The position numbers and the translations under genes are program-made. A DNA stretch of 64,000 nucleotides from Quercus robur (taxonomy: Eukaryota; Streptophyta; Magnoliopsida; Fagales; Fagaceae), in NCBI RefSeq assembly GCF_932294415.1, contig NC_065544.1, positions 19,443,351-19,507,350 of the forward strand, given 5' to 3'. Shown here one piece after another: positions 738 through 63,469 of this stretch; position 1 is the stretch's first letter, and every line of letters begins with the position of its first letter. The notes under the pieces were generated by a model that saw nothing but the letters and a program-made list of their open reading frames with translations, was not told the DNA's origin and did no database searches.

Positions 738-1415
738 TATGGGGCCCAAGAATTTGTGGTCCTGGCCCATTTTTACATTGGGGCCCAAGGCCCGAGCCGA
801 GGAGGGGTATAGCTGAGGACGTGTAATAAAAGTCCAAGTAGTCTTGAGACATAGTTGAGGATAATTCTGTCCTCGGCATATCTGAAGTCCCCCTGAAAGA
901 AAGGGCAAGAACGGTATAGGAATAGTTTTGGAAAAAATCTAAAATATCTCTGTCAATAGAGAAGGGGACGCTGGATAGTATAACGACCAAGGATAAAGGG
1001 AAAGTTGTCATTACTGCCATTGAATACTCTGCACCTGACAGAGCCATGCTTTTCAGTTTTTACAACCACCCCCCAACCACTTTGGGTATGGGCTGATGGG
1101 ACAAGTATCAGTCCTGGAAAGTCGATCCTACACGTGGACGTAGGATAAGGGATACAGGCTAATATAAAAGGAGAAACAAGCAATCCGGAGAAGGGGCTGG
1201 GAAAAAAGACCAAGAACCAGAGCCTCCCAGACCGCCTCAAGGAGAAAGACTCCTCGAGCGAACACGGTTTAATTCTGTATGAACACCACGACTAACCACC
1301 GTCCGGTGACCAAGGCCTAGCCTTTCAAACCCACGCTCTACAAATGATATTGTTTGGGCCTTTTTTACGTGCGAACCCAGTATCATTTTGGGTCGTTACA
1401 AATTGAGTCCTTACA
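738..1415 (+). repeat. 5' LTR
   Basis: Begins TATGGGGCCC and ends GAGTCCTTACA, matching the 3' copy at 4279-4957. It contains a TATA-like promoter (TATAAAAG, 1163-1170) and a U5-like end. The first bases are TA rather than the usual TG in both copies, and the TSD fixes this border. Confidence 0.92.
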
Positions 1416-1417
1416 AT

Positions 1418-1435
1418 TGGCGCCGTCTATGGGAA
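1418..1435 (+). other. Primer-binding site of the LTR element
   Basis: TGGCGCCGTCTATGGGAA lies two bases downstream of the 5' LTR. TGGCGCC is the usual start of a tRNA-derived minus-strand primer site in plant Gypsy elements. The exact tRNA was not determined. Confidence 0.75.
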
Positions 1436-1655
1436 AGACTTGTGTGTTGGCACAAGCGGTGGGTTGAGACAGTCCCCCCGTCATTTCCAACAGCCAGTTG
1501 TAGTGTTCTAGCGTAAAGTTCCACTAGGGGCTATGTTTCTTCACTAGGGGCTACGCTTTGAAGCGTCAATAGCGCGGATGGTTCTAAGGGCTTGGCCGAG
1601 GAGCTACTCCCCCTAAACCAATGTCCCACGCCATAGCCGAGGGGTTAATTCCCCC

Positions 1656-2660
1656 AACTACTTAAAAAAACTAAGTTTTGGACAGAACCAAAGTATTGCA
1701 TGGTCCTCGGACTCAAACCTATGGGGAAACCAACTACTTAAAAAAGCTAAGTTTTGGACAGAACCAAGGTATTGCATGGTCCTCCGACTCAAACCTATGG
1801 GGAAACCAACTACTTAAAAATCAAGTTTTTGACAGAACCAAGGTATTGCATGGTCCTCCGACTCAAACCTGTATTGCATGGTCCTCCGACTCAAACCTAT
1901 GGGGAAACCAACTACTTAAAAATCAAGTTTTTGACAGAACCAAGGTATTGCATGGTCCTCGGACTCAAACCTATGGGGAAACCAACTACTTAAAAAATCA
2001 AGTTTTGGACAGAACCAAGGTATTGCATGGTCCTCCAACTCAAACCTATGGGGAAACCAACTACTTAAAAAAGCTAAGTTTTGGACAGAACCAAGGTATT
2101 GCATGGTCCTCCAACTCAAACCTATGGGGAAACCAACTACTTAAAAATCAAGTTTTTGACAGAACCAAGGTATTGCATGGTCCTCGGACTCAAACCTATG
2201 GGGAAACCAACTACTTAAAAAATCAAGTTTTGGACAAAACCAAGGTATTGCATGGTCCTCGGACTCAAACCTATAAGGAAACCAACTACTTAAAAAATCA
2301 AGTTTTGGACAGAACCAAGGTATTGCATGGTCCTCGGACTCAAACCTATAGGGAAACCAACTACTTAAAAATCAAGTTTTGGACAGAACCAAAGTATTGC
2401 ATGGTCCTCGAACTCAAACCTATGGGGAAACCAACTATTTAAAAATCAAGTTTTGGACAGAACCAAGTTATTGCATGGTCCTCGGACTCAAACCTATGAG
2501 GAAACCAACTACTTAAAAAATCAAGTTTTTGACAGAACCAAGGTATTGCATAGTCCTCAAACTCAAACCTATGGGGAAACCAACTACTTAAAAAAGCTAA
2601 GTTTTGGACAGAACCAAGGTATTACATGGTCCTCCGACTCAAAAATCAGCTACTTAAGGA
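1656..2660 (+). repeat. Tandem array, about 13 copies of a 74-76 bp unit
   Basis: The word GACAGAACC recurs at 1681, 1757, 1831, 1933, 2008, 2084, 2158, (2233 as GACAAAACC), 2308, 2382, 2456, 2531 and 2607. Spacing is 74, 75 or 76 bp, the length differences coming from an A-run and an AAGCTAAG/ATCAAG alternation. One 28-bp internal duplication lies at about 1871-1898. Units contain TATTGCATGGTCCTC and CTCAAACCTATGGGGAAACC. A long open frame runs through the array only because the units carry few stops. It is not a protein gene. Confidence 0.92.
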
Positions 2661-2842
2661 GAATTCTAAGTCGCTCAGTCCTCGAACCAAATACTGGAAA
2701 AGACTAAGGCTATGAAGGTCATTAGGAAGATGGCGAAACGCCTTATTACTCAGCGACCCGCAGGGGCTGTTCATTTTGGGTTACATTTCCTCGGATGATT
2801 ATTTCCTACACAGCACCGAGCATTCAGCCATCATCTCGTTCA

Positions 2843-3145
2843 GTTTGGGGTATACAACCCTTTTTCAGGTCGGTCTTATTGTGCAAGATAGCTTCAATAA
2901 GTTCATAATAACATCTTTTTTCTTAGTAAGGGTTTCGGGCCTAAGTATCGTTTTCTTAGGTCGGCATTTTTATGCCAGACAGCTCTAATAAGCTCATAAT
3001 AACACATTTTTCTTTTTTTCTTTGTAAGGGTTTCTGCCCTAAGTATCATTTGTTCAAATCGGCATTATTATGCTGGATAGTTTCAATAAGTGCAGAGTAA
3101 GGTCTTTTTATTAATAGGGATTTCGGCCCTAAGCATCGTTCAAAG
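2843..3145 (+). repeat. Second, degenerate tandem array inside the LTR element (about 95-bp unit)
   Basis: Four diverged units share a string like GTAAGGGTTTCGGCCCTAAG (near 2843, 2925, 3022, 3113) and GGTCGGCATT...CAATAAG...CATAATAACA. They lie downstream of the 75-bp array and share no obvious sequence with it. Confidence 0.6.
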
Positions 3146-4278
3146 TATAAAAATGAAAAAAAGTCATACGGTCGTACGTCCATTCACGGCATAACCATTG
3201 CAAGAAAGAAAGAATACATAGAATAAAACAATGGAAACTTTTATTAATGTAAAGAAGTAGTACAGCGTACAATGAAGGGCTTAAACAAGCCTATATAGGA
3301 AACAAATTACAAGAACTAGAATAAAAAAATAATTAAAAAAAAAAAAAAAAGAGCAACAAAAATAAGAAGTCTTGCTGAATTCTGCTCTAGTAGCTACCAT
3401 ATTGAGAGGAGGACCTCTTTTGATGGATGAGGAGAAGAAGAGGAAGAAGGAAAAGCACCAGGATGGATCTGGTGATGGGAAAGAAGAAGAAGGGGAGGCA
3501 AAAGGAGGCATCAGTGAAGGAACAGAGGAAGAAGCAGGGATACTTAGTCCCTGCGTCAGCCCTGACTCCTAACACGCTGGTGCCATATTAGCTATGCTCA
3601 TAAGAGAGCGGCTGGTACTGATAATGGATAACCCCAGCTCAATCGCATCAAAAGCTTGATGCGACTAGCACCTGCTTCGAATTTTGGCTGAAGGAGGATG
3701 GGAAGCATCCTGAGTCTCTGCCAACCCTGCCCTGACCGAGCCATCTTAAGTTTCGGAGGGACATAACGCTTCTGAGAAGGATGTGATCTTTTCATCCCCG
3801 CTTTTTCTTCAAACGTGTCACACTGTAAGCTTTGGCTATGCTGATAAGGAAGACTTTGAGCACAGCTTAAGGTTTGAGGCTTTAGGAAGGTTAAAGAGTC
3901 TTTACACGAAGGGAGTACCCTCTCGTCTGGCTTCTTATATGGAAGGTAAATTCAGTGGTATTTAATCCGTACAGATTTCCAAGAAGATCTGCAAATGAGG
4001 TAGCGTCTGTTCAACTCCCCAATGTCATCTATAACCGTCAGATTTGATCGGCCTCGTAGTGTAAATCTATTAAAGATGCGCCTCGTACACTGAAACGATA
4101 GGAGCGCCCAGTGTGAAAATCTAGACGAATGTCTCGTAACCCAGCGCATTTACTAAATAGATGAAGGGACACCAACACTAATGAAGGTTAGAGCTGAACG
4201 AATTGTAATAAAGGCTAGGCATCGCCAAAACCCTCCTCTCCGACTAAGAGGTCGGACAGCAGGATTTTGAGGGGCTAT

Positions 4279-4957
4279 TATGGGGCCCAAGAATTTGTGG
4301 TCTTGGCCCATTTTTACATTGGGGCCCAAGGCCCGAGCCGAGGAGGGGTATAGCCGAGGACGTGTAATAAAAGTCCAAGTAGTCTTGAGACATAGTCGAG
4401 GATAATTCTGTCCTCGCCATATCCGAGGTCCCCTTGAAAGAAAAGGCAAGAACGGTATAGGAATAGTTTTGGAAAAAATCTAAAATATCTCTGTCAATAG
4501 AGAAGGGGACGCTGGATAGTATAACGACCAAGGACAAAGGGAAAGCTATCATTACTGCCATTGAATACTCTGCACCTGACAGAGCCATGCTCTTCAGCTT
4601 TTACAACCACCCCCTAACCACTTTGGGTATGGGCTGATGGGACAAGTATCAGTCTTGGAAAGTCGATCCTACACGTGGACGTAGGATAAGGGATACAGGC
4701 TAATATAAAAGTAGAAGCAAGCAATCCGGAGAAGGGGCTGGGAAAAAAGGCCAAAAACCAGAACCTCCCAGACCGCCTCAAGGAGAAAGACTCCTCGAGC
4801 GAACACGGTTTAATTCTGTATGAACACCACGATTAACCACCGCCCGATGACCAAGGCTTAGCCTTTCAAACCCACGCTCTACAAATGATATTGTTTGGAC
4901 CTTTTTTTACGTGTGAACCCAATATCATTTTGGGTCGTTACAAATTGAGTCCTTACA
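4279..4957 (+). repeat. 3' LTR
   Basis: Same termini as the 5' LTR and followed directly by the GTAAC target copy. A TATA-like box lies at about 4702-4709. Of about 27 differences from the 5' LTR, I count only two transversions. Confidence 0.92.
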
Positions 4958-11260: not shown

Positions 11261-11543
11261 CTGAAATGCAGAAACTTTTTACAACCCAAATCTATAAATC
11301 TCAAAAAATTAAATAAAAATAAAAATAAAAAATAAAAAATAAAAAAAAAAACCCAACAAAACGTAAAAGCAGTTATATCAAACCCAGATCCTAAAATCCC
11401 AAAAATCTCAATACCCAGATATGCAAATCCAAAACCCACAATTCCTAACACCCAGATCCACAAAAATTCTCAAAACCCAGATAAAGATTGGAAGCCAACA
11501 GTAAAAATAGAGCATTAAAAAAAACAACAACAAAAGATAGTAC
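11261..11543 (-). other. Candidate 5'-UTR intron of the ROH1-like gene
   Basis: On the minus strand there is a good donor (TAAAG|GTACTATC, exon side ending at 11544) and a good acceptor (CTGCATTTCAG|CTTTTG, exon resuming at 11260) enclosing 283 bp of T-rich sequence. It lies between a possible promoter near 11.7 kb and the ATG at 10973. There is no transcript evidence. Confidence 0.45.
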
Positions 11544-21523: not shown

Positions 21524-21961
21524 CCTATGAGGAAAGCAATTTGGAAGCCTCCCCCAGATGGGTGGGTTAAGTTGAATTTTGATGCAAGAGAAGAGAAAAC
21601 TTCTTTAATTGTAGTGGGCATAGATAATAAAGGAGATTTGATTTTTGCTTGGGCTAAACAAGTTGGACCGAGGTGGGTGAAGTAAAGACAGCACTTTGTG
21701 ACATCAGAAAAGCTATTAATAAAGGAATTTCTAAAATTATTGTGGAAGGGGATGTTTAGAATGTAATAGGTCCATTTGGGAAATGCAAGAATGAAGACTC
21801 ATTGGAGTATTGCAAAGGTGATTGCAGATATTTTAGATCTTGTTAAGTGTTTTGATGTGTTTTCTTTTTCTTTTATATACAGCGAGGGCAATGCTTCAAC
21901 CCATCTTTTAGCCCCATTAGGTTGCTTTTGTAAATTGGGTAAAGCCATTACCCATCTCTAA
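21524..21961 (+). pseudogene. Decayed LINE RNase H relic
   Basis: Reads in pieces as an L1-type RNase H domain: KAIWKPPPDGWVKLNFD, then after a frameshift TALCDIRKAINKGISKIIVEGD, an in-frame stop, and a C-terminal part with stops. The domain order matches the LINE ends at 8.2 and 25.3 kb, but this copy is much older. From 21642 on, it is part of a tandem duplication. Confidence 0.7.
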
Positions 21962-22125
21962 TGTCCCTCTCCTGGTTGTTCGGGTTGTGGAAAGAGAGAT
22001 GAATCCAGACCTTCCATTCTTTTGTACTTTGATGACTATCAATATAGTAATTATTTAGCAAAAAAAATTGTCAATAATGAAAAAAAAATTATTGACATTT
22101 AACAAACAAAAAAAAAAAAAACAAA

Positions 22126-22128
<3 letters not shown>

Positions 22129-22207
<79 letters not shown>
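22129..22207. repeat. Compound (TC)n(AC)n microsatellite, copy 1
   Basis: About 32 TC units followed by about 7 AC units. The homologous site in copy 2 is 23333-23397. Confidence 0.95.
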
Positions 22208-22846
22208 AGTACAAGCAACTCCTAAAATCATCTATTATTCTTTTAGCTCTCCAGGTTTTAAACATTGATGCTTTGCGCAATTGCAATGCAAAGCCAAAGT
22301 TATAAAATAGGGTCGCGATGGTCATCATTATGCCAATGTGAGCAATCCTATATTTATGTTATTGTTGTAGATAATGCTGTCAAAATCGAGATCCTATATA
22401 CGTAGAATCATAGGAGATAGGTGGAATCGTAGATCATAAGATCCTACATTATTTGAGGAAAAAAAAAAACACACACACACACACACACACATTGGTATGT
22501 TAAATAATCACATAAATTATACATTCATTCATAATTTGCATCCATTTGATGTATTACTATACATCACTATATCCATTTGTAAGTATCATTTAAAATAGGC
22601 CAAAAATCTCAAAACGTGACACTCTATTGGGATGTTATTTTTCATTTGGTCCAATTGACATTCTATCTCTCTACATTAGAAAAGCAAAACTTGATCTTTT
22701 AGGATATTATTTTTAATTTAGGTCCAACTAAACCTTATGTCAAGTTAAAGAAAATTACAAGAAATCAGGATCATTTGGGATCATCAGAATTGTACAATCC
22801 TACCAATCCTAAACAATTGCAAAGATCCTTGAAAGATTCGGATCGT

Positions 22847-23165
22847 TTTTTGCTTGGGCTGAACAAGTAGGACCGAGGTGGGTGAAGTAAAGGCAACACT
22901 TTGTGCCATCAGAAAAGCTATTAATAAAGGAATTTCTAAAATTATTGTGGAAGGGGATGTTTAGAATGTGATAGGTCCATTTGGGAAATGCAGGAATGAA
23001 GACTCATTGGAGTATTGCAAAGGTGATTGTAGATATTTTGGATCTTGTTAAGTGTTTTGATGCATTTTCTTTTTCTTTTATATACAGAGATGGCAATGCT
23101 TCAGTCCATCTTTTAGCCCCACTGGGCTACTTTTGTAAATTAGGTAAGGCCATTACCCATCTCTA
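22847..23165 (+). pseudogene. Second copy of the decayed RNase H relic
   Basis: Same order and same in-frame stop after IIVEGDV as the first copy, so the stop predates the duplication. Confidence 0.7.
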
Positions 23166-23325
23166 ATGTCCCTCTCCTGGTTGTTTGGGTTGTGGAAAGA
23201 AAGATGATTCCAGACCTTCCATTCTTTTGTACTCTGATGACTATCAATAAAGTAATTATTTAACAAAAAAAATGTCAATAATGAAAAAAAATTATTGACA
23301 TTTAACAAACAAAAATAAATAAAAA

Positions 23326-23332
<7 letters not shown>

Positions 23333-23397
<65 letters not shown>
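23333..23397. repeat. Compound (TC)n(AC)n microsatellite, copy 2
   Basis: About 16 TC units then about 16 AC units; the proportions are altered compared with copy 1. Confidence 0.95.
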
Positions 23398-23398
<1 letters not shown>

Positions 23399-23565
23399 GT
23401 ACAAGCAACTCCTAAAATCATCTATGATTCTTTTGGCTCTCCATGTTTTAAACATTGATGCTTTGCGCAATCGCGACGCAAAGCCAAAGTTATAAAATAA
23501 GGTCGCGATGGTCATCATTATGTCAATGTGAGCAATCCTATATTTATGTTATTGTTGTAGATAAT

Positions 23566-24085
23566 GCTGTCAAAATTGAGATCCTATATACGTAGAATCG
23601 TAGGAGGTAGGTGAGATCGTGGATCATAAAATCCTACATTATTTGAGAAAAAAAACACATTGGTATGTTAGATAATCACATAAATTATACATTCATTCAT
23701 AATTTGCATCCATTTGATTTTGATGTATTATTATACATTACTATATCCATTTGTAATCATCATTTAAAAGAAGCAAAAAATTTCAAAATGTGACACTCTA
23801 TTGAGATGTTATTTTTCATTTGATCCAACTAACACTCTATCTCTCTACGTTAGAAAAGCAAAACTTGATCTATTGGGATATTATTTTTCATTTAGGTCCA
23901 ACTCAGCCTTATGTCAAGTTAAAGAAAATTACAAGAAATCAGGATCGTTTGGGATCATTAGAATTGTACAATCCTACCGATCCTGAACAATTCCAAAGAT
24001 CCTTGAAAGATTCAAATCATTTTAGGTAGGTGAGATTGTAAAATCGTAGGATTTAGATTGGGATTTTGACAACTATGATTGTAGA
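23566..24085. mobile_element. Candidate TIR element (TTGTCAAAATCGAGATC family)
   Basis: The left end CTGTCAAAATTGAGATCC is matched in inverted orientation near 24055-24085 (ATTTTGACAACTATGATT). Related ends occur at about 22374, 27200, 28330 and 29700. The interior holds many GATC/CCTAC/GTAGG words. No target duplication established. Confidence 0.45.
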
Positions 24086-27189: not shown

Positions 27190-28345
27190 AGTAATCATGA
27201 CTATGATTGTCAAAATCGTGATCTAGATTATAGAATTGCACAATTTTACAATGCCACCTTACCAAAACATTTAAGATCGCACTAAAATTGTAAAAATGGT
27301 AAGATCGTATGTAGGATTGCGTAGAATCGTACGAGATCCTACCAAAAACATAAATTTTTGGTTTTTTTTTTTTTTTTTTTTTTTTGGATAAATTCTTTGT
27401 TTTGATGAAGTTTTAAGGGTTTTTATTTTTTCTTATTGTGATGGTATGACTTTGTATTTTTTATTTTATAAAATTATATTAACCTAAGCAAATGTTTTCT
27501 AATTTCTAGTTCACTTGTAATCAAAATGAAGGAATGCTTCATCATTTTTAAATGAAGAATTTGATGTTGGCTTTACTGTCTTTTAAGCTATAATGTTGTT
27601 AAATTTGTTTAATTAATATACTAATTTGTTTTCTAATATTACTAAAATATTTTTTATATATAATTTTATTAGTTATGTTTGTATTTGTATATTGATTGAT
27701 TGATTTTTTTGAGCGTGGTCTTTAATTGTTGTTGAGTGGTATAACTTGAATAGTTAAGTGTGAAATTGTATCTTGATATCTTTTGCAGCTCTAGTATAAA
27801 AATATATAATGTCTACATAGATGATGAAATAGATGATGATGATTAAAAAATTTAGGATGGTGGTTATAAAAATCTTAGAATGAGAATAATTAAATGTTCA
27901 CCTCACCTTAAAATTCATCTTACTTTTGGATTTCATATTGTAGTTAGCTAGTTTCCATTTGCTAACTTATTTTGGATTTCAAACTTGGAACTTAGAACTT
28001 GGAAAATATTTTTCATATGTTTTGATAAAAATTTTGGTATTTGGTTGCTAATTAAACATGTATTGAACTTTTTAGATACATTAGGTCAAAACTTAAAATA
28101 TATTGTTTCGTTAGTATAGACTTAACAATGTATGACATGCAAATTACATCATATGATGCAATTTAAGTTTTTTTATGGATGAATTTATAATTTATGTGAT
28201 TATTCAACATACAAAACCATTATCAATGTGTTTATTGCTTTAAATCTGAAAATATGTATGATCTTATGATTCACGATCTGATCCTACGATGTACGATCCC
28301 ACCTACCTTCAACGATCTTACATAAGATCTCGATTTTAACAACCT
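27190..28345. mobile_element. Candidate TIR element, about 1.15 kb
   Basis: The left end ATTGTCAAAATCGTGATCT is matched inverted at the right end (reverse complement GTTGTTAAAATCGAGATCT). The subterminal parts are rich in GTAGGATCGT-type words. The 1-kb interior is AT-rich with no coding region. It may be a non-autonomous DNA transposon; the superfamily is not determined. Confidence 0.45.
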
Positions 28346-28456
28346 TGGTCATGACTCATGAGCTGCTTCATGTTGTATTCTTCCATGGTTGAAAAAAAAA
28401 TAAAAAAGGTATGCACACAAGTTTGCTTATCTTTTATTTTTTGGTAATATATAAAA

Positions 28457-29556
28457 GGGTAAATTCCAGAAAACTACCTGAGGTTTGGGGAAATACCACT
28501 CAGGTCCAACACATTTTAAAATTGACCAATTAGGTCCCTAAAAGACATATTAGTCACTAATACCCTTAACACCGTTAAACCCTCCGTCATTTTTCTTTCC
28601 CTCACTCAGAATTCTCAGTATCTTCTCTCTGGTTCCTTTCCCTCTTTCAATCCTAGCCAAAGCCATAATAAAAAAACCCAAATCTTACCACAAAACTCAA
28701 AGCCAAAAAGATATAGAAACCCTTTGAAGAAAAGAAGAAAACTAATTTGACACAATTCAAAGATCAATCATTTGCACACTCAAAAGCCAAAAATAAGATG
28801 TAAAAACAAAAACCCAGATCCAAAAACAGCTCCAAAACAAGAAACAACACAAAGATCCACTGATTATTGAAGCTGGGGTCACACGGTGGGATTTGGGGTA
28901 AGATTTGGATAGCCATCAACGCCATCCAAACCATCAAGCGAGCTCACAAGTCCTCCTCCACCACACCCGATTACTCCCCCATCCTTTCTCGCCTCCTCAA
29001 ATCCAACCTCCTCGCTACCCTACGTGAGCTCCTACGCCAAGACCACTGTGCCCTCGCTCTCCACACCTTCTTCGTCGTCCGATCTGAATACAACAATCCA
29101 GACTTGTCCCTCTACGCCGACGTGGCCCCCGCTCTTGCGAGGAACATAATGGTGGAAGATCTCAACCGTCTAATCTGTGACTTGGAGACAGATTGTGGTG
29201 GAGGTGGGATCCAGTGTGACGATAAGGGGTTCATCGGGTTGATCAAGGCGATGATTGATGTTGATAGGAGGGAATCGACGGTCAGGATTTACGAGAGTGT
29301 AGAGACGATATAGTTTTGTGGTAAGATGTGGGTTTTTTTGTTATGGCTTTGGCTGGGATTGAAAGAGGGAGAGGAACCAGAGAGAAGAGACGAGAGAGAA
29401 TTCTGAGTGAGGGAAAGAAAAGTGACGGAGTGTTTAACGGTGTTAAGGGTATTAGAGACTAATATGTCTTTTAGGGACCTAATTGGTCAATTTTGAAATG
29501 TGTTGGACTTGAGTGGTATTTCCCCAAACCTCAGGGTAGTTTTCTGGAATTTACCC
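28457..29556. mobile_element. Pack-type Mutator-like element (long TIRs, 9-bp TSD)
   Basis: An 1,100-bp element with terminal inverted repeats of about 245 bp (28457-28700 and about 29312-29556), both starting GGGTAAATTCCAGAAAACTA at the outer ends. It is flanked by the perfect 9-bp duplication TATATAAAA (28448-28456 and 29557-29565). Long TIRs and a 9-bp duplication are the hallmarks of Mutator-like elements. There is no transposase. The interior carries a PPR/THA8-like gene fragment, so it is a gene-capturing (Pack-MULE) type. The arms differ at only about a dozen positions. Confidence 0.88.
28867..29313 (+). pseudogene. Captured PPR (THA8-like) gene fragment inside the Mutator-like element
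   Basis: An intact frame of 148 codons. After an unrelated start (MKLGSHGG) it reads GKIWIAINAIQTIKRAHKSS, ILSRLLKSNLLATLRELLRQ, ALALHTFFVVRSEY, PDLSLYADVAPALARN and DDKGFIGLIKAMIDVDRRES. This matches the helical repeat pattern of short THA8-like pentatricopeptide proteins, which act in organelle RNA splicing or assembly. The stop (29311-29313) falls at the inner edge of the right TIR, so the C-terminus is cut by the element. It lies between the TIRs, is GC-rich relative to its surroundings and has no introns. Whether it is expressed or only a captured remnant cannot be told from sequence. The family call is moderate. Confidence 0.65.
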
Positions 29557-29987
29557 TATATAAAAATTTGATTACAGTAAGGTCCAACTAATAAGAATGC
29601 TAGAAATATGTAAATTATATTATTCACTTGGAGCCATTTATCGGCAAGATGCAAATATTAGGTCTTCTACGATCCCACCTACCTTCAACAATCCTACGTA
29701 GGATCTCAATTTTGACAACCTTGGTCATGACTCATGAGTTGCTTCATGTTGTGTTCTTCCATGGTTGAAAAAAAAAAAAATCTGCACACAAGTTTGCTTA
29801 TCTTTTATTTTTTGGTAATATATAAAAAATTGATTACAGTAAGGTCCAACTAATAAGAATGCTAGAAATATGTAAATTTATTCCCTTGGAGCCATTTATC
29901 GGCGAGATTCAAATATTATGTTTTCTCCACAGCTTGTTTGCTTTTTGTTAATGCATTAATCATAATTATCAACAAAATTGAATAATT

Positions 29988-30023
<36 letters not shown>

Positions 30024-32379
30024 CACTAATTGAATCATGAAGTGGATACCTTACCCTCTATCTTATTATTTTGGTGCTCAAATATTGTTTGAGCGATAGC
30101 TCAATAGGATTAAAAAATTATTAAATAAGCTATATGATCACCAAAGCCACGAATAATTTAATCTTTTCTTTTTTGTTAAGTAATTTGAAAAAGCAAGAGA
30201 ATGAAGTATATTCATTAAGCATGACTGCAAACTCACCCTTGAAAAGAAAATAATAAATATAAAAGAACTCTTCTTTTTGACCTAATTATAGATTCAATAA
30301 TATGATGGTTCGTAAGACAGTTGTGATCTGTAAATTACTAAATTATAGTAAAAAGTGGAGATTCTAGTGTAGGATCTGTTTTCATCTTGGTCAAAATTGT
30401 AAGGTTGAACTTGAACCCATTATGGCTTCTTCATCTAATATTGATTTCATTTAGAAAATATTATTTTTTTATTTATTCATGGAGAGAAAATAATAACTAA
30501 AATTAACAACTTAACTTTTAATAGTGCAAATAAAGCAAAAGTGTGTGATATATAATTATATATATTGTAAAGTCGGACTCCTCCCTTTTTGGCTTTTGGC
30601 TTGACTTTGACGACGGCCCACACAGGCTAGCTGCTGACCTTGCTTGCTCTCGAAGCTTCCCAGAACCTAAGAAGCCCTTGTCTATAATTTTTTAATGTTT
30701 TTTTTTCCCCTAAGCAAAAGCAGAACAAACGGAATGAGTAACTAAAACTAAAAATAAAAAAATAAACAAGGTAATGGGTGTATAAAACTAAGAAAATAAT
30801 ATTACATGACAGTTACTCACATGCATACATAACTTAAAGTAAATGAATCACATACACATATAAGAGTAACATTACGTATGCATATACCAATATATATATA
30901 TATATATATATGCTATTAAATTGAATAGATAATTTAATTTTAAGTCATTGCTTATCAAAACAAACACTTAGATCTCTCTCTCTCTCTCTCTCTCTCTCAC
31001 GCACGCACGCATGCATATTGTTAAACTGATCAATCTAGATACAATTCCTTTTAAAATTTTACCTAGTGGCTAGTGATGATGTAAAGAATTGGGGAGTTGC
31101 AAGTTTTGGTAGACCCACAAAGATAAATCATACATACATAGTTTGGAGTGACATCATAGCTTGGAGTGATATTGGTGTGATGTCGCGGATCAATCCTTCT
31201 CTGATGCTCAAGTTAGTACTTTAATGTAGAAAATAGTATTTATGTTATGGTTTTTCTCATACCTTCACTTTAATATAGAAAATAGTATATATGAGTTTTT
31301 TTTGGTTAAAATTTGCAGTTTTATTTGATTTATACAAGTTGTTAGACTTTTTTTTTTTTTAACACAAAATTATTGGAATACTTAATTGAGTCCAATAAAA
31401 TTACATGTCCATGAGTTTTTTTCCCCCCTCTTCTCTTTCTCCTTCAAAATTTGGTGTATATACTTGGCACTCACTTTCATATTTGCAATTTTTCTCTATG
31501 CTATGAATAATGTATTAAATGAAAATTTTATTATTTATTATTTTGTTATTATTGTTATGAGTCTAAGAAGCTAGAATGTCATTTTCATATTTATAAATTT
31601 CTTTTTCTATGCTATGAATAATGTATTAAAATGAAAATATAATTATTTTTATTTTGTTATTATTGTTATAAGTCTAAGAAGTAAGAATACCAATAAAAAA
31701 ATATAAACAAAAATTTATTAGAATAAAAAAAAAACAAACAAACAAACAAACAAAAAGAGATAGTAAATGTTGATGATGATGATGATGAAAAAAATGTCAA
31801 TGAAAACATTGACCAAGATGATTTTTTTTTTTTTTTTTGAGGGGAAAGACTTAGATGGAATTTATTAGGTGAGATGATGAAAGAAAATTATTATTTTGGT
31901 TCATAAATCATGTGTTATCACTTATGAGTTTAATCAATTTGAATGTGTATGTTATAAATATATGTTAATTTGATTTATTTAGTTAGATTTGTTAAATATT
32001 ATTACATAAGTAATAATTAAATTGGTCATTAGTTGAATATATTTTGAATTTATAATGAATATACATTTTATATATGTATATCTATAATTTTTTAATAATT
32101 TTATTAGGTGTTTGCATATCGTATGATACACGATACGATACGATACACGATACAGAAAAATAAAAAATCGATTCACGATTCACATTTTGACTACTATGAT
32201 CTCATGATTCTCATCATTTCCCCACATTTATGGGTGAATATCTCAAGTTTCATAACTATGTTTAGGAATGATGTACTCATTATGCACAAATATTGCTCGC
32301 TTGCATCAAAGATCCCACATTACCAAATGGGGATTGGGTCATCCAAATCTTATAATTTCTTCTTTGAATCCCTTTCATC

Positions 32380-37429: not shown

Positions 37430-40400
37430 TCAATGAAATAGATCAGCGAAAGACCACATTATGAGCCTTGCAAAAATGTCAGACTCTAGGAACTCAATAT
37501 GAGCAGCACGTCCAATAAAGGAGTTCAAGTTCCTGCCATGCAAAGAGGCATCAAAGTTGACATCACAGCGCATGAACACTCGATGCTCAGATGAAGGACT
37601 CCGTATCTGGTCCAAGCAATTATTCAGCATCTCCATGAAGACACTGCTTTTTTTCGAGTAATTCAATGAAGCTGCTGGGCACATTTCAATTCTGGCTGAA
37701 TGATATGGAACATATCCATCCTGACATGTAATCAATAACTAGCATTACATTTCTATCTATCTGCTTTGCTTTTATTATTATTATTATTTTTTCTTTTTTG
37801 GTCAGAAATCAACAAAATATTGATAGTCTTTAAATGACACGGGAAAATTGCTGGAAGTATATAAAAATTCATGTATAATCATCAAATAAGTGTAATGGTG
37901 GAATTTTAGAAACTAACAGAAATGCTAAACTATAGTTCCTACATGTTTTTCTTATAATTTGGCTTCTTCCTTTGAATGAGATGGAACATAACAAGATACT
38001 TTGAACCATTAAGAGATTGCATTGGTATCTATTATCTAGAACTCACCAAAATAAGTCTGATGTTAAAGTATTTTTCAGAAATGAGATGCTATTCTGTTTC
38101 TTTCTTTACCAGGTACAAAATTAAGACTCTAAAAATAGAAACAGCTTATTTGGTACCAAATTTTCTGGTAAATAAACATATAGATGTTCCCAATTAGAAC
38201 AGGGGCTCCTCACTAGAAGAAGGTTTTCCAATCCCAGCATGATTCTCTAAATATACTAAAGCCCATAGAACTTACAATAGATCAGTTGTGAACTGCCCAT
38301 CTAAAACATTTGTAGCTTTCTAATAGTTCTTGGAAAAGGAAAAGTTTATATGTACGCAAGCATGATATCATGAAAAAAAGTTGTACAATTTTACAAGCTG
38401 TCCTTGTCAACAAAATAAGCCTGAAAAGAGGAGTACCTGTGGTGAAGATAACAGAATTACATTTCTGAAGTTCTGCAGTGTCCTCTTCTGTGAATGGGGG
38501 AATAAAACTTGTTTTAGTATGACAGACAGATTAAAAAGATATGCATACTTCTTACATGTACAAAACTATGATTGTCCTCTTCTGTGAATGGGGGAATAAA
38601 ACTTGTTTTAGTATGACAGACAGATTAAAAAGATATGCATACTTCTTACATGTACAAAACTATGTTTAATCGTTCATATGGTTACTGTCATTTCCCTAGA
38701 ATATGTATTTCAGGATTATTTTCATTTTGGAGAGAAGGCGAACAAGACTCTATCTAAGGCCACAACTTCATGGTTGAACAGCAGAAGTGACGTAGGAAAA
38801 AACCAAAACAATGCAACAGTAAAATTAAAGAAGAAAGAAGGTTGTACCTAAGCTCTCACTTTTGCAAGTTTTGGGAGAGGTCATGGTAGGCAGCCTTTCT
38901 CTCAATTTTTTTTGAGATGCTGATTCCCAAGTAAAATTAAAGAAAAGGAAAATAAATTATAGAGAGCCTAGGAGTTAGCACCTAGGTTTGCTAAGAGTCA
39001 ACATCAAGCAAAAAAAACCGCTAGGAGTAAACACCTAGGTTTGGATGGAGCTAGCACTAGACCACTGAGACAATTTCAAGAGAAATTTTATTCATCATAA
39101 AAAATAACCCTGTCTCTACAAGAGTACATTATTGTGCTTAGATAGACTACTAAACCCTAATTCTAACTGACATAGGAAAACCTTAATTCTAATTGACTTA
39201 TAAGAACTATTTCTAAATGACTTGGAAAATGCCATTTATGGAATTAAAAAGATAACCTTGACTCTAGGACTTTCAATAAAAACACTAATAAACCTAATTA
39301 ACTACTAATACATAAATTAAAATACAATTGACTCCAGAATTAATTAAAATAGATATCTCTTTGCGCTTCCCACATCAGGAGTGAGTAATTGTTTTATATA
39401 TGCTACCAGGCCCCTCTTAAACCTTTAAACACATCTTTAGAAAGAAAAGAAAAGAAAAAAAGAGAAGAAAAAGTTATAAATAATAAATAAATAAAATGCT
39501 AGAACCACTCTGAGAAAGGCTTAGGGAAGAATAATTTGTTTCAGTACCTTGCAGAGTTTGTATAAGAAAGTGTTGTGGAGATCTGGATTATCTGTGAGAG
39601 TAAGTTGATGGATGCATTGTGCACCCTTGAGCTTCTTCAAGAGCCACAGCCCAGAGTTAAATAAAGAGTTCGAACTGTACAGATACCCCAAGTGTGGACC
39701 AGATATAGAAAGATACGTATACAAGTATCTTAGATATGGCTCCATGATGCTCTCTGCAAAAACAAAAGGCACACATCTAGCAGTAAATGCAAATTAAACG
39801 AAAATGAGGCCCTCAAAGATAAATGCATACCAGCTAATGCAGTTCTTATGATGAGGTTTCCAATGGAATGACCAACAAAGCTAAGTTTGATGCTTCTTAA
39901 ACTACCACATCTTGAGGCTTTATCAATTTTCTTTTTCAGGAAAGAAATCACTTCCTGAGCCAGCCTTAAACCCATCTCTCCCAATTCTCCAAATGTTTTG
40001 TCTTCATTTGCCTCTGACATCAGAAACTTTATTTTGGGATCTATCTGAAGCCATTGATTCCTGACAAGCCGTAGATCCAGATGATGTCCCTATTCATGTT
40101 GTAATTAGTATGTTTAAATACAATGCAAAATAAAACATGCATTAATCACTGTTCACAGACACAGAAGGTATACAGACATATGAACCTAGTACAGAAACAA
40201 AAGTTTGCAGCATAAAACACAATAAGGAAGTACAATGCAATACCAGATACATTATTTCAAATATTTGACTCCTTTAATGAAAAAAACTTACTTTGGATCT
40301 AAAAATATCACTAATATGTTCACTGAAATAAGAACAATACACACTGTCCAATTTATAAGCTTGATGAAGATCAGCACCAGTACTTCCTTTTTATTTATTT

Positions 40401-43400: not shown

Positions 43401-46400
43401 AAATCTGTCTAATATATAATTAGTGTAGAAACATTTTCACATTTTTCAGCAATATCTAACTCACATAAATCATAAAACCATGTTGATCTTCTGCGAGAGA
43501 AAATACGTTTTTTCCTGAATAGAAGCATACATGCTATTTTCATTTCTAGTAAACTGACGAATTTCTGGATCATTCAAACATCATTTCGAGTAAAAAAGAA
43601 TACCTGTGGAACTTCAAAAAAGCGTTCCATAAGAACAAAACTTGATTCCCCAGCATATAATAAAAGCTAAACAGATAATCCTGAGGCAAGGACTGGAGCA
43701 ATTTCTCACTTTGAAAGTTAATAATACCGCCTGCTTTCTGCTCAATAAAGGAATTATTATTCAGAAAAGAAAAACATTAAGACCATCAATATCAAAGAAA
43801 AAAAATCAACACTTATCCGCCACAAGAAATAAAGTGAGAACCTCAATACTATTTTGTGGCTTGCCAGAGAGTTTCTGTGAAACTTCACCAAATTCCATAT
43901 CCAGATCTGCTTGCATAATAGAACTACACAGATTTTTATTATCAAGATTGAAAATAAGATCAGTCAAATCAATTTCTTGTTCGATAGCTTTGCTAATCTT
44001 TTGTAGATCTTCAAAAAGTATATCACGAGCAGCCACCAACGCTTTTACAAGCATGATCTGTTTTAAATCTCCTGATGCTTTTTGACCTAATGCCTGATCA
44101 GTCACCAAATTTTTCTTTAATGAATAAACAACAAAGTTCAGTAATGCTAATCTTTTCTTGGTAACAGCAGAAGCATACTACAAAAAATCTTCTAAGAATT
44201 CATGTAAAGCAACTCAAAACAGTGTAGATGTTGTGATATCTTGTAATGAGGAAGTTAAGAGACAGAATCTGATTCAGGGAAAGAAAAGAATTTTATTTTA
44301 ATATAGTTTTTTATTCAATTTTAGAAGTGATTGTATTTTTCTATTGGGTCATTGGATTTTACTAGCTAACTAAGTTATTACTATTTCATTCCTTGTGTCT
44401 GTGCCTAGCATCATAGATTGTGTTTAGTATCATATATTTGTTCATAGCCAATCCCAAGCATGGGAAAGGCAGAAGGGTTATGGTAGGCTTTGCATGATTT
44501 GATGACTTCCTTGGGGAGCATCCTGACATTAGACATATTGGAGAATTTGACTACAAGTGCTTATGGTTGGTTTAGGATTTAGGAGGATTTTTAGATCTAA
44601 TGTTTAGAGTTGAAGAAGAAAGGGTTAAGGTTTAAAAAGGATAGGTTTATGAGTAGTAGTAGTAGTAGTAGTAGTTGTTGTTGTTGTTATTATTATTTAA
44701 TAGAGAAAATATGTGAGGTTTTAGGGTTTCGATAAGTAAGAGGAAGGGTGTGACTTGGGGTTGTAAGGAAGAAGGAAAAAGAAAGAAATTTATGGTGTTT
44801 AGGGGCTGTATAAGTAGTACTCATGAATTGTAGCAAAAGAAAAATAAGAAGGAAAGAGTAAATAACACATGAAGGGCAATATGTTCCAATGATCAACTCC
44901 TCTATTCTTCGATTGAGCATATATATAAGGATTCTTTCTTGTGTTAGTTGTATTAAGACTTCTAGTATGACTAGTAAACTAAAAACCTAATAAAAGGCTC
45001 ATTTGGACTCAAAGAAAATAAAACCTAAGATACTTAAAATCTCATATAAAATTCCAAACTCAATTAGATTACCAAAGTACACTTAATTTGTAAGGATTGC
45101 AGAAATTACAATGTTCCCTTGAATACAAAATCAATCAAAACTAGTTAAATAAAAACACAAATTAATTTTTTTTTTACCATAGGAAACTTTTTTTTTTATA
45201 AGTAATAAAGGTTTATTAAGAAAGAAGATCACTTCATACTCACGATGATGAACAAAAGTGTCTTAAAAATTACATCATACAGAAAAGATGAGTAAAACCC
45301 CACACTATAGACCAATCAAACAAAGTACATATTAGCACTAATTGTAGGTGCTCCTGAGACCACTCAATATCCTAAAAGGTGTGTTTATTATGTTCCTTAA
45401 ACACAATTTATATAAAATATGATGGAACAAGGTTCCAAATGTTTGACGAGTGTTTCCCAAAACAATTCCTCCAACCAAGCAATAAGGATGCTATCGTCGA
45501 AGGCAAACCCAATGAATCCCAAACATCTTAAAGATGACACTCCTCAAACTAAAAGCAACTTTGCAATAAAGCAATAGATGGCCAACTATTTCCCCACTAC
45601 ACCTACACATGCAACACCAGCTAACTAAAGAGAACCCCTTATCGATGAGATTCTCACAACTAAGGATCCTACCCCAAGCTGCTGTCCAAATGAAGAAGTC
45701 TTGAATAAACGAATTTGCGTAGTAACAAACTAATTTCCATATCCATCACATCCCCTCAATGTCATTTGTTGAATTTATAGATTTTCTTGTCTTTGGATTG
45801 TATTCTTTTGAAAGGGATAGATTCACATCTCTCGTGTGTGATCTTCCCGTTTTCTTTTCAAATAAAAGTTAAAAAAAAAAAAAAAAAAATACATGGGCAT
45901 GCTAATCAAGAAGGATAAAGGTTTTAGCTTCAAAAAAATCATTGTGACATTACGCACCTTGTTTGACCCATCGAAATCTTGACCATTATCATCTTCAACA
46001 GCCCAAGTTGCACTGTAATATATAGTTGGTAATCAATGCTGATAAAAGTTGACATATAAAAGCAGGTAATTCCAGATTAAGGGATACAATTCTGACTATG
46101 TCAGAAAGTGGAATCATGACAAACCTGGGTACCTTCAGTGGGGGGATGTAAGAACCAGTCCTCAGTAAACTGACATGTACACTTATATCAACAAGGACAG
46201 CATGGGAAGCATCAAAATGAACAGGACAATAAGAATGCATTCCCAGAAGAGCATTAGGAGGAATGCAGAATTCATGAACAGCAACAGAGCATGGTTCTAG
46301 AGAAGCCTGCAACTCAGGCCTGCAAATAGTGTGGCACAACCAGTGTTCTGGGTTCAGATAAGAGTTAAAAGGGTATTCAATTCAAGTTTGTGTGATATCA

Positions 46401-62200: not shown

Positions 62201-63469
62201 GAATTTTTTTTTATATAAATAAAATATAAATATTTACCATGAGGAGGTAAGTGTCATTTTAAAAAATAGGAGGGGATTTCCGACATGACATTTCCCCAAA
62301 CCTTAAGGGAGGTTAGTGTAATTTACCATACATATTTTTTTGATAAACACATGTAAGATATTTTTAAGAAGAAAGGAAAGCTCAAAATGTCAAGCTTCCT
62401 TAAAGAATTATAAATGGACATTCATATGGTCCAAAAAATCAACTATAGAGCTAAATGATACCCCCTCAATTGTAGTACAATATTCAAACAAAGATCTCAG
62501 AAAACTATTCTTAACATCCTGCTTTGATTTCTCTTCACCTTCAAAGCTGTTTCTCTCTCTCTCTAGATGGTCCACATAAATATAGACTTCATTACTGAAA
62601 CATGGTCAAAAGCATGTGAGGGAGTTTCGTCGTTGACTGATTTCAAATCTAATTCATACAAGTGTTTTGGTTTCTGAAATGATGACTAGTTCATCTTTCA
62701 ATGTCAGTATGCCACCAACTGTATTATGGCATGGTATTGTCTCATACCATACATAAGCGATGTAGAGCCCGTGATTTCTGATTTCTGATGTAGAGCTAGT
62801 GTCCATTTGCCACGATGTTTTTCATTTAACTTATTTTGTTTATGTACAGCTTTTTCTGATTGTGATGCTGGACTGTCCATTTGGCATCAGCTTTTAGCTT
62901 TGTTTGGTTAGAATCAAAAGAAATTATTCGATTGATATTTAAATATAAAAGGTCCAACTTAAATTTATAGCCTTAGACCTCAAACTACATTGAGCCAGCT
63001 CTAAAATCTGACATAGGACAGACATGGTATTCATTTTGAGAGTAAAATCTTGGTGGACCATCCAGACTCAGTTCTTACCAAAACGTTTAAAGACTACTAA
63101 ATCTAATAAATGACAACAAACAAAGGAACTGCCATCAGAACTACTAGAGAACTCTAGAGTCCTAACAAGACAAACTTCGAAACCATATAGGAATTGAGTG
63201 ATGCAGATGTGGACATCACACAAACAAAAACCCAGAATATGCAAAATCAAAATATGCATAAAAATAATAAAAGAAAATAACAGACTTGGGAAGATATATG
63301 ATAAACTCTCTCTCACGAAAGCATGTCAAGACAAAAATGATTTTAGGCGATTTTTTTGTCAGTCTTTGTTTCATATATATCGATATCATTTTAAAATGCA
63401 TAGCTTGGAAAAGCAGACATGAAACTAGAAAATGCATACCAGCTCAAATCTCTCCTTCTGATGGTCAGC
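59268..63469 (-). CDS. Possible 3' end of an unrecognised gene (two exons, partial)
   Basis: On the minus strand a 30-nt exon (63469-63440) sits between acceptor AATGCAG|GCTGACC and donor GAGCTG|GTATGC and reads ADHQKERFEL. A terminal exon (59348-59268) follows acceptor GCACATGCAG|CTCATG and reads LMQNLIPVVEKRKPRRALRR, then VNSMCW and a stop. The joined frame stays open, is highly charged and ends in a basic tail. The intron would be about 4.1 kb and contains a MITE. The gene would continue beyond 64000. I do not recognise the family, and the call rests only on splice sites and composition. Confidence 0.3.
61977..62327. mobile_element. MITE related to the Pack-type Mutator-like element
   Basis: 351 bp. 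Left GGTAAATTACGCCAACTTCC, right (reverse complement) GGTAAATTACACTAACCTCC; both continue into AAGGTTTG.GGAAATGTCAT. The termini resemble the 28457-29556 element (GGTAAATT.C..AAACTACC, AGGTTTGGGGAAAT). Internal sequence is AT-rich and non-coding. No clean target duplication seen. Confidence 0.75.

Follow-up and report, generated by a model that had tools for sequence, protein, structure and literature searches.

Within the 64-kb window, as we call the whole stretch of DNA analysed here, lies a non-autonomous Mutator-like element (MULE) that, judged by its anatomy, we assign with high confidence to the Pack-MULE kind. The finding is real, yet the element is an ordinary Pack-MULE, of a kind already well known, that happens to come with a convenient empty site. 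The element proper runs from 28457 to 29556 and measures exactly 1,100 bp, the size given in a preliminary description of this DNA; the range of 28448–29565 offered there picks out the right site but is that of the element plus both TSDs rather than of the element alone. It begins with GGGTAAATTCCA and ends with TGGAATTTACCC, and its long TIRs, earlier put at about 245 bp, measure 241 and 245 bp and are identical at 230 of 241 aligned bases, with 11 mismatches and 4 gap bases in the alignment. The TIRs of MULEs may differ already at insertion, and a dating of the event from their divergence (11/241) was dropped for that reason. Identical copies of TATATAAAA directly border the element on both sides, and since these repeats cannot be extended by any base on either side, the TSD is 9 bp long and, as previously described, perfect. 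TSDs of 9 nt have been described as typical of MULEs (PMC4486113).

Table 1. Coordinates in the window of the insertion, its internal parts, the duplicated host site and short matches to the element elsewhere
Feature	Position	Strand	Basis
Duplication copy 1, left part	28292–28456	+	window self-comparison
Left TSD, TATATAAAA	28448–28456	.	sequence comparison
Left TIR, 241 bp	28457–28697	+	TIR alignment
A-rich subterminal stretch, 194 bp	28698–28891	+	composition (49% A, 35% GC)
Stop-to-stop open frame with TAG	28864–29313	+	frame scan; first inner ATG at 29149
17-bp patch, TTTGGGGTAAGATTTGG	28892–28908	.	16/17 match to the inner part of the left TIR, reverse complement
Captured THA8-like gene fragment	28909–29311	+	PDB-chain match, composition; borders partly inferred
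Right TIR, 245 bp	29312–29556	-	TIR alignment; contributes the final two stop-codon bases
Right TSD, TATATAAAA	29557–29565	.	sequence comparison
Duplication copy 1, right part	29557–29667	+	window self-comparison
Duplication copy 2, without insertion	29668–29926	+	window self-comparison
Single TATATAAAA of the empty site	29819–29827	+	copy comparison
Short element match, 28 bp, 86%	11328–11355		window self-comparison, E below 0.01
Short element match, 39 bp, 82%	44251–44288		window self-comparison, E below 0.01
Short element match, 38 bp, 82%	62290–62327		window self-comparison, E below 0.01

The element interrupts the first copy of a tandem duplication with a unit of about 260 bp, the second copy of which is uninterrupted (borders of both copies approximate). 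When the flanks of copy 1 are joined and aligned with copy 2, 245 of 259 aligned positions are identical (14 mismatches), with 18 gap bases, of which 8 stem from the second TSD that still stands in the joined flanks; once one of the two TSDs is taken out and the gap settings are changed, the copies differ at 15 of 258 positions. Copy 2 reads GGTAATATATAAAA and then AATTGATTACAG, and the joined flanks of copy 1 read GGTAATATATAAAA and then ATTTGATTACAG, with AATTGATTACAG following the single TATATAAAA of the empty copy versus ATTTGATTACAG in the filled one. This empty twin demonstrates both the insertion event and the borders of the element. The copy alignment thus bears out the earlier proposals that the insertion lies in copy 1 of a short tandem duplication, that copy 2 keeps one uninterrupted TATATAAAA, and that the insertion and its exact borders are thereby proven. 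The explanation that the element was collapsed or misplaced in assembly is extremely improbable: it is at odds with the perfect TSD and the agreeing TIR borders, with a window that contains no N, and with duplicate copies that have diverged instead of being identical. The substitutions between the copies were also inspected for a trace of methylation spread, in the form of a C-to-T/G-to-A bias in the filled copy, and gave no signal: among 10 transitions, the A or T stands in the filled copy six times and in the empty copy four times.

As to the order of events, the host site was most likely tandemly duplicated before the insertion, so that an empty copy survived. This order is favoured because, had the site been duplicated with the element already in it, both copies would be filled. 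The preliminary description took it as proven, which overstates the case, since the same picture results if an allele with the insertion and one without it undergo unequal exchange. An insertion that came first, with the duplication arising later through such an exchange, would leave an identical final arrangement in the single haplotype read here, and the divergence of the copies (14/259) is old enough for either order. Nevertheless, we regard this alternative as unlikely: judged by eye on the present sequence, the copies share at most 1 base at the duplication joint, an overlap more readily explained by replication slippage or an event within one chromatid than by homologous exchange, which is thereby rendered less likely. 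Duplication ahead of insertion hence remains our preferred order. Diverged relatives of the beginning of the duplicated host sequence occur on the minus strand at 22378–22433 and 23568–23623 (79% and 82% identity over 56 aligned columns), so that the element lies in or beside dispersed repeat DNA.

Only one frame in the element stays open from stop to stop for 110 codons or more; it extends over 149 codons (28864–29310) to a TAG at 29311–29313. No other frame of that length is present, and on this criterion of frame length the element encodes no transposase of its own. The TAG straddles the right TIR's inner border (29312), two of its bases belonging to the TIR, in keeping with the earlier placement of the stop at the TIR edge. 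The translation of this frame from 28870 (147 residues) shows similarity to THA8 (PDB 4me2) with an E-value of 1.4e-7, residues 15–92 of the query aligning to chain residues 49–131 of 257, and to the Arabidopsis protein At3g46870 (4leu) with an E-value of 1.1e-5 (query residues 38–97). The third PDB match, with an E-value of 0.083 to an RNA polymerase chain of a poxvirus, we regard as a chance similarity. Searches of the fragment found no family and no PPR repeat in Pfam at E up to 10 and no family in NCBIfam, whose library covers bacteria and archaea, at E up to 1; its comparison with viral contigs gave 27 pattern matches, 0 of which were confirmed. Accordingly, the similarity to THA8 stands behind the earlier designation 'PPR/THA8-like', but its 'PPR' part derives solely from that similarity, as Pfam and NCBIfam give nothing. 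The openness of the frame says little by itself, because a frame this long or longer appears in any of the six frames of 11 of 500 base-composition shuffles of 28698–29311; it is the homology to THA8 that carries the case for a host gene fragment on the element. We place the left border of this fragment at the end of the adjoining patch (28909), whereas the protein alignment starts at 28912. The fragment has a GC content of 53%, with an in-frame GC3 of 66%, as compared to 28% for each of the 500-bp flanks (27948–28447 and 29928–30427).

The captured piece is, on the evidence of its sequence, most likely a truncated gene fragment with both ends missing and not a complete THA8-like protein. The missing ends are suggested by the limited part of the chain that the alignment covers (83 of 257 residues, with a looser envelope at 44–196). 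THA8, a small PPR protein, has been described as containing four PPR motifs and functioning in chloroplast intron splicing (PMC9497791), and measured against that description the fragment does not amount to a complete small PPR protein. The first ATG of the frame lies at 29149 and leaves 54 codons, codons 1–95 of the 149 being devoid of one, and the sole earlier ATG on the plus strand of the element (28798) is immediately followed by a stop codon. What was captured thus appears to be an uninterrupted part of an exon without a start of its own in the frame, and most likely not an intact gene. The earlier 'intact 148-codon frame' is correct insofar as the frame has no internal stop, but its length is 149 codons, only 54 of which follow the first ATG; 'gene-carrying', likewise, holds for a gene fragment recognized by its similarity to THA8 but not for a whole gene.

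These features also bear on whether the fragment might be a functional new gene, transcribed from the TIRs and translated into a short PPR-like protein. The frame is unbroken across the THA8-similar region, which speaks for such a gene, but translation from the ATG at 29149, positioned past the part aligned to 4me2, would begin downstream of nearly the whole aligned region, and that from 28798 would run straight into a stop. Together with the restriction of the 4me2 alignment to residues 49–131 (envelope to 196) and the failure of the Pfam search to recover a PPR motif, this makes a functional gene very unlikely. We instead posit that any transcript of the element would be non-coding or feed small-RNA silencing. 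Another reading, which we consider unlikely, is that the element acts as a putative trans-regulator, in which read-through of both TIRs would yield a hairpin RNA and, with it, small RNAs that match the parental THA8-like gene; the inverted repeats of about 240 bp on both sides of the fragment would suit such a role, and sequence acquisition by Pack-MULEs is said to allow regulation of the parental gene (PMC3310237).

Going by what is known of the superfamily, the long TIRs would be bound by a transposase of the MULE type provided in trans, and the observed TIRs, TSD and empty twin are consistent with insertion at a 9-bp staggered cut in TATATAAAA. Earlier, in an ancestor of the element, a stretch of about 400 bp would have been copied in from a GC-rich exon belonging to a THA8-like gene, reaching as far as the inner border of the right TIR, where the fragment is seen to end. 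This capture probably took place during gap repair, with fork-stalling template switching as an alternative route (models discussed in PMC8277862). The A-rich subterminal stretch probably belongs to the element itself. Between it and the captured piece lies the 17-bp patch (Table 1), which adjoins the latter and ends 3 bases ahead of the first codon of the THA8 alignment. It might be a capture scar, left as repair copied a bit of the TIR, switched to the THA8-like gene and returned at the right TIR edge. We advance this reading tentatively and deem it rather improbable: an equally good match arises somewhere in 2 of 150 dinucleotide shuffles of the interior, statistics that are weak, and the position of the patch at the junction was noticed post hoc, making it a lead only. 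If true, the element would preserve in this patch a trace of how it captured the exon, by gap filling or template switching. The origin of Pack-MULEs was called perplexing in 2021, and a gap-filling or fork-stalling model was deemed worth exploring for those of plants (PMC8277862).

There is no further good copy of the element within the 64-kb window, where only three other sequences match it at E below 0.01, all of them short (Table 1). That at 62290–62327 resembles the terminus of the element and ends in GTAATTTACC; going by this resemblance, it may be the terminus of an old MULE-like element of a different kind. Exact searches with a TIR 22-mer in viral contigs and a TIR 20-mer in prokaryote genome contigs gave 0 matches, as expected for plant DNA in these non-plant collections, and a text search of a collection of papers found no occurrence of a TIR string. 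By its gene content the window resembles nuclear DNA of a flowering plant. It has 26 frames that stay open from stop to stop for 110 codons or more; eight were scanned with Pfam and seven of these gave hits (ROH1-like, Tubby, F-box, DUF676, two RVT_3 and one zf-RVT), while Rfam at gathering scores gave 0 matches across the whole window. Other repeats are also seen. Direct repeats of about 679 bp with 96% identity lie at 738–1415 and 4279–4957, the first being followed by TTGGCGCC, which we take to resemble a primer-binding site, and the region 738–4957 resembles an LTR retrotransposon about 4.2 kb in length. Between its LTR-like repeats lies an array of mostly 75–76-bp tandem units (1654–2643) that is open in one frame for 255 codons (1675–2439). 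Further, two copies of about 1.2 kb are arranged head-to-tail at 21642–24023 with 89.5% identity, and a 95-bp tandem duplication with 99% identity lies at 38479–38667.

Overall, the preliminary interpretation stands in its outline of a Mutator-like element with a gene fragment and an empty site, but not in its 'intact' frame or its proof of the order of events. A single element of this type matters little, as plant genomes hold from tens to thousands of Pack-MULEs each, a published table giving 46 for Arabidopsis, 220 for tomato, 276 for maize and 2,853 for rice (PMC3310237). Its use lies in offering a clean case for teaching and annotation, with sharp borders and an empty twin on the same molecule. 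Automatic annotation might miscall the captured fragment as a PPR gene. Given the parental gene, the junction patch could in addition serve as a small test of exon pickup.

With respect to known systems, the empty twin is comparable to the RESites, in which a paralogous sequence without the insertion reveals the TSD and the insertion gap (PMC4486113). It differs from these in that the paralogue is here the directly adjoining tandem duplicate, which is convenient but introduces no new principle. The captured fragment is akin to THA8 and the THA8-like small PPR proteins (4me2, 4leu) over residues 15–92 and 38–97, respectively, of the 147-residue query, and differs from them in matching part of the chain, in having no ATG upstream and in showing no PPR repeat recognized by Pfam. 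Rice and maize Pack-MULEs prefer GC-rich sequence, and the GC-rich fragment fits this preference as described for those two plants (PMC3310237), although the element itself seems to come from neither. In all anatomical features compared, the element agrees with known Pack-MULEs: it shares with them the long TIRs, the 9-bp TSD, the small size and a GC-rich gene fragment, the captured piece being its only long frame.
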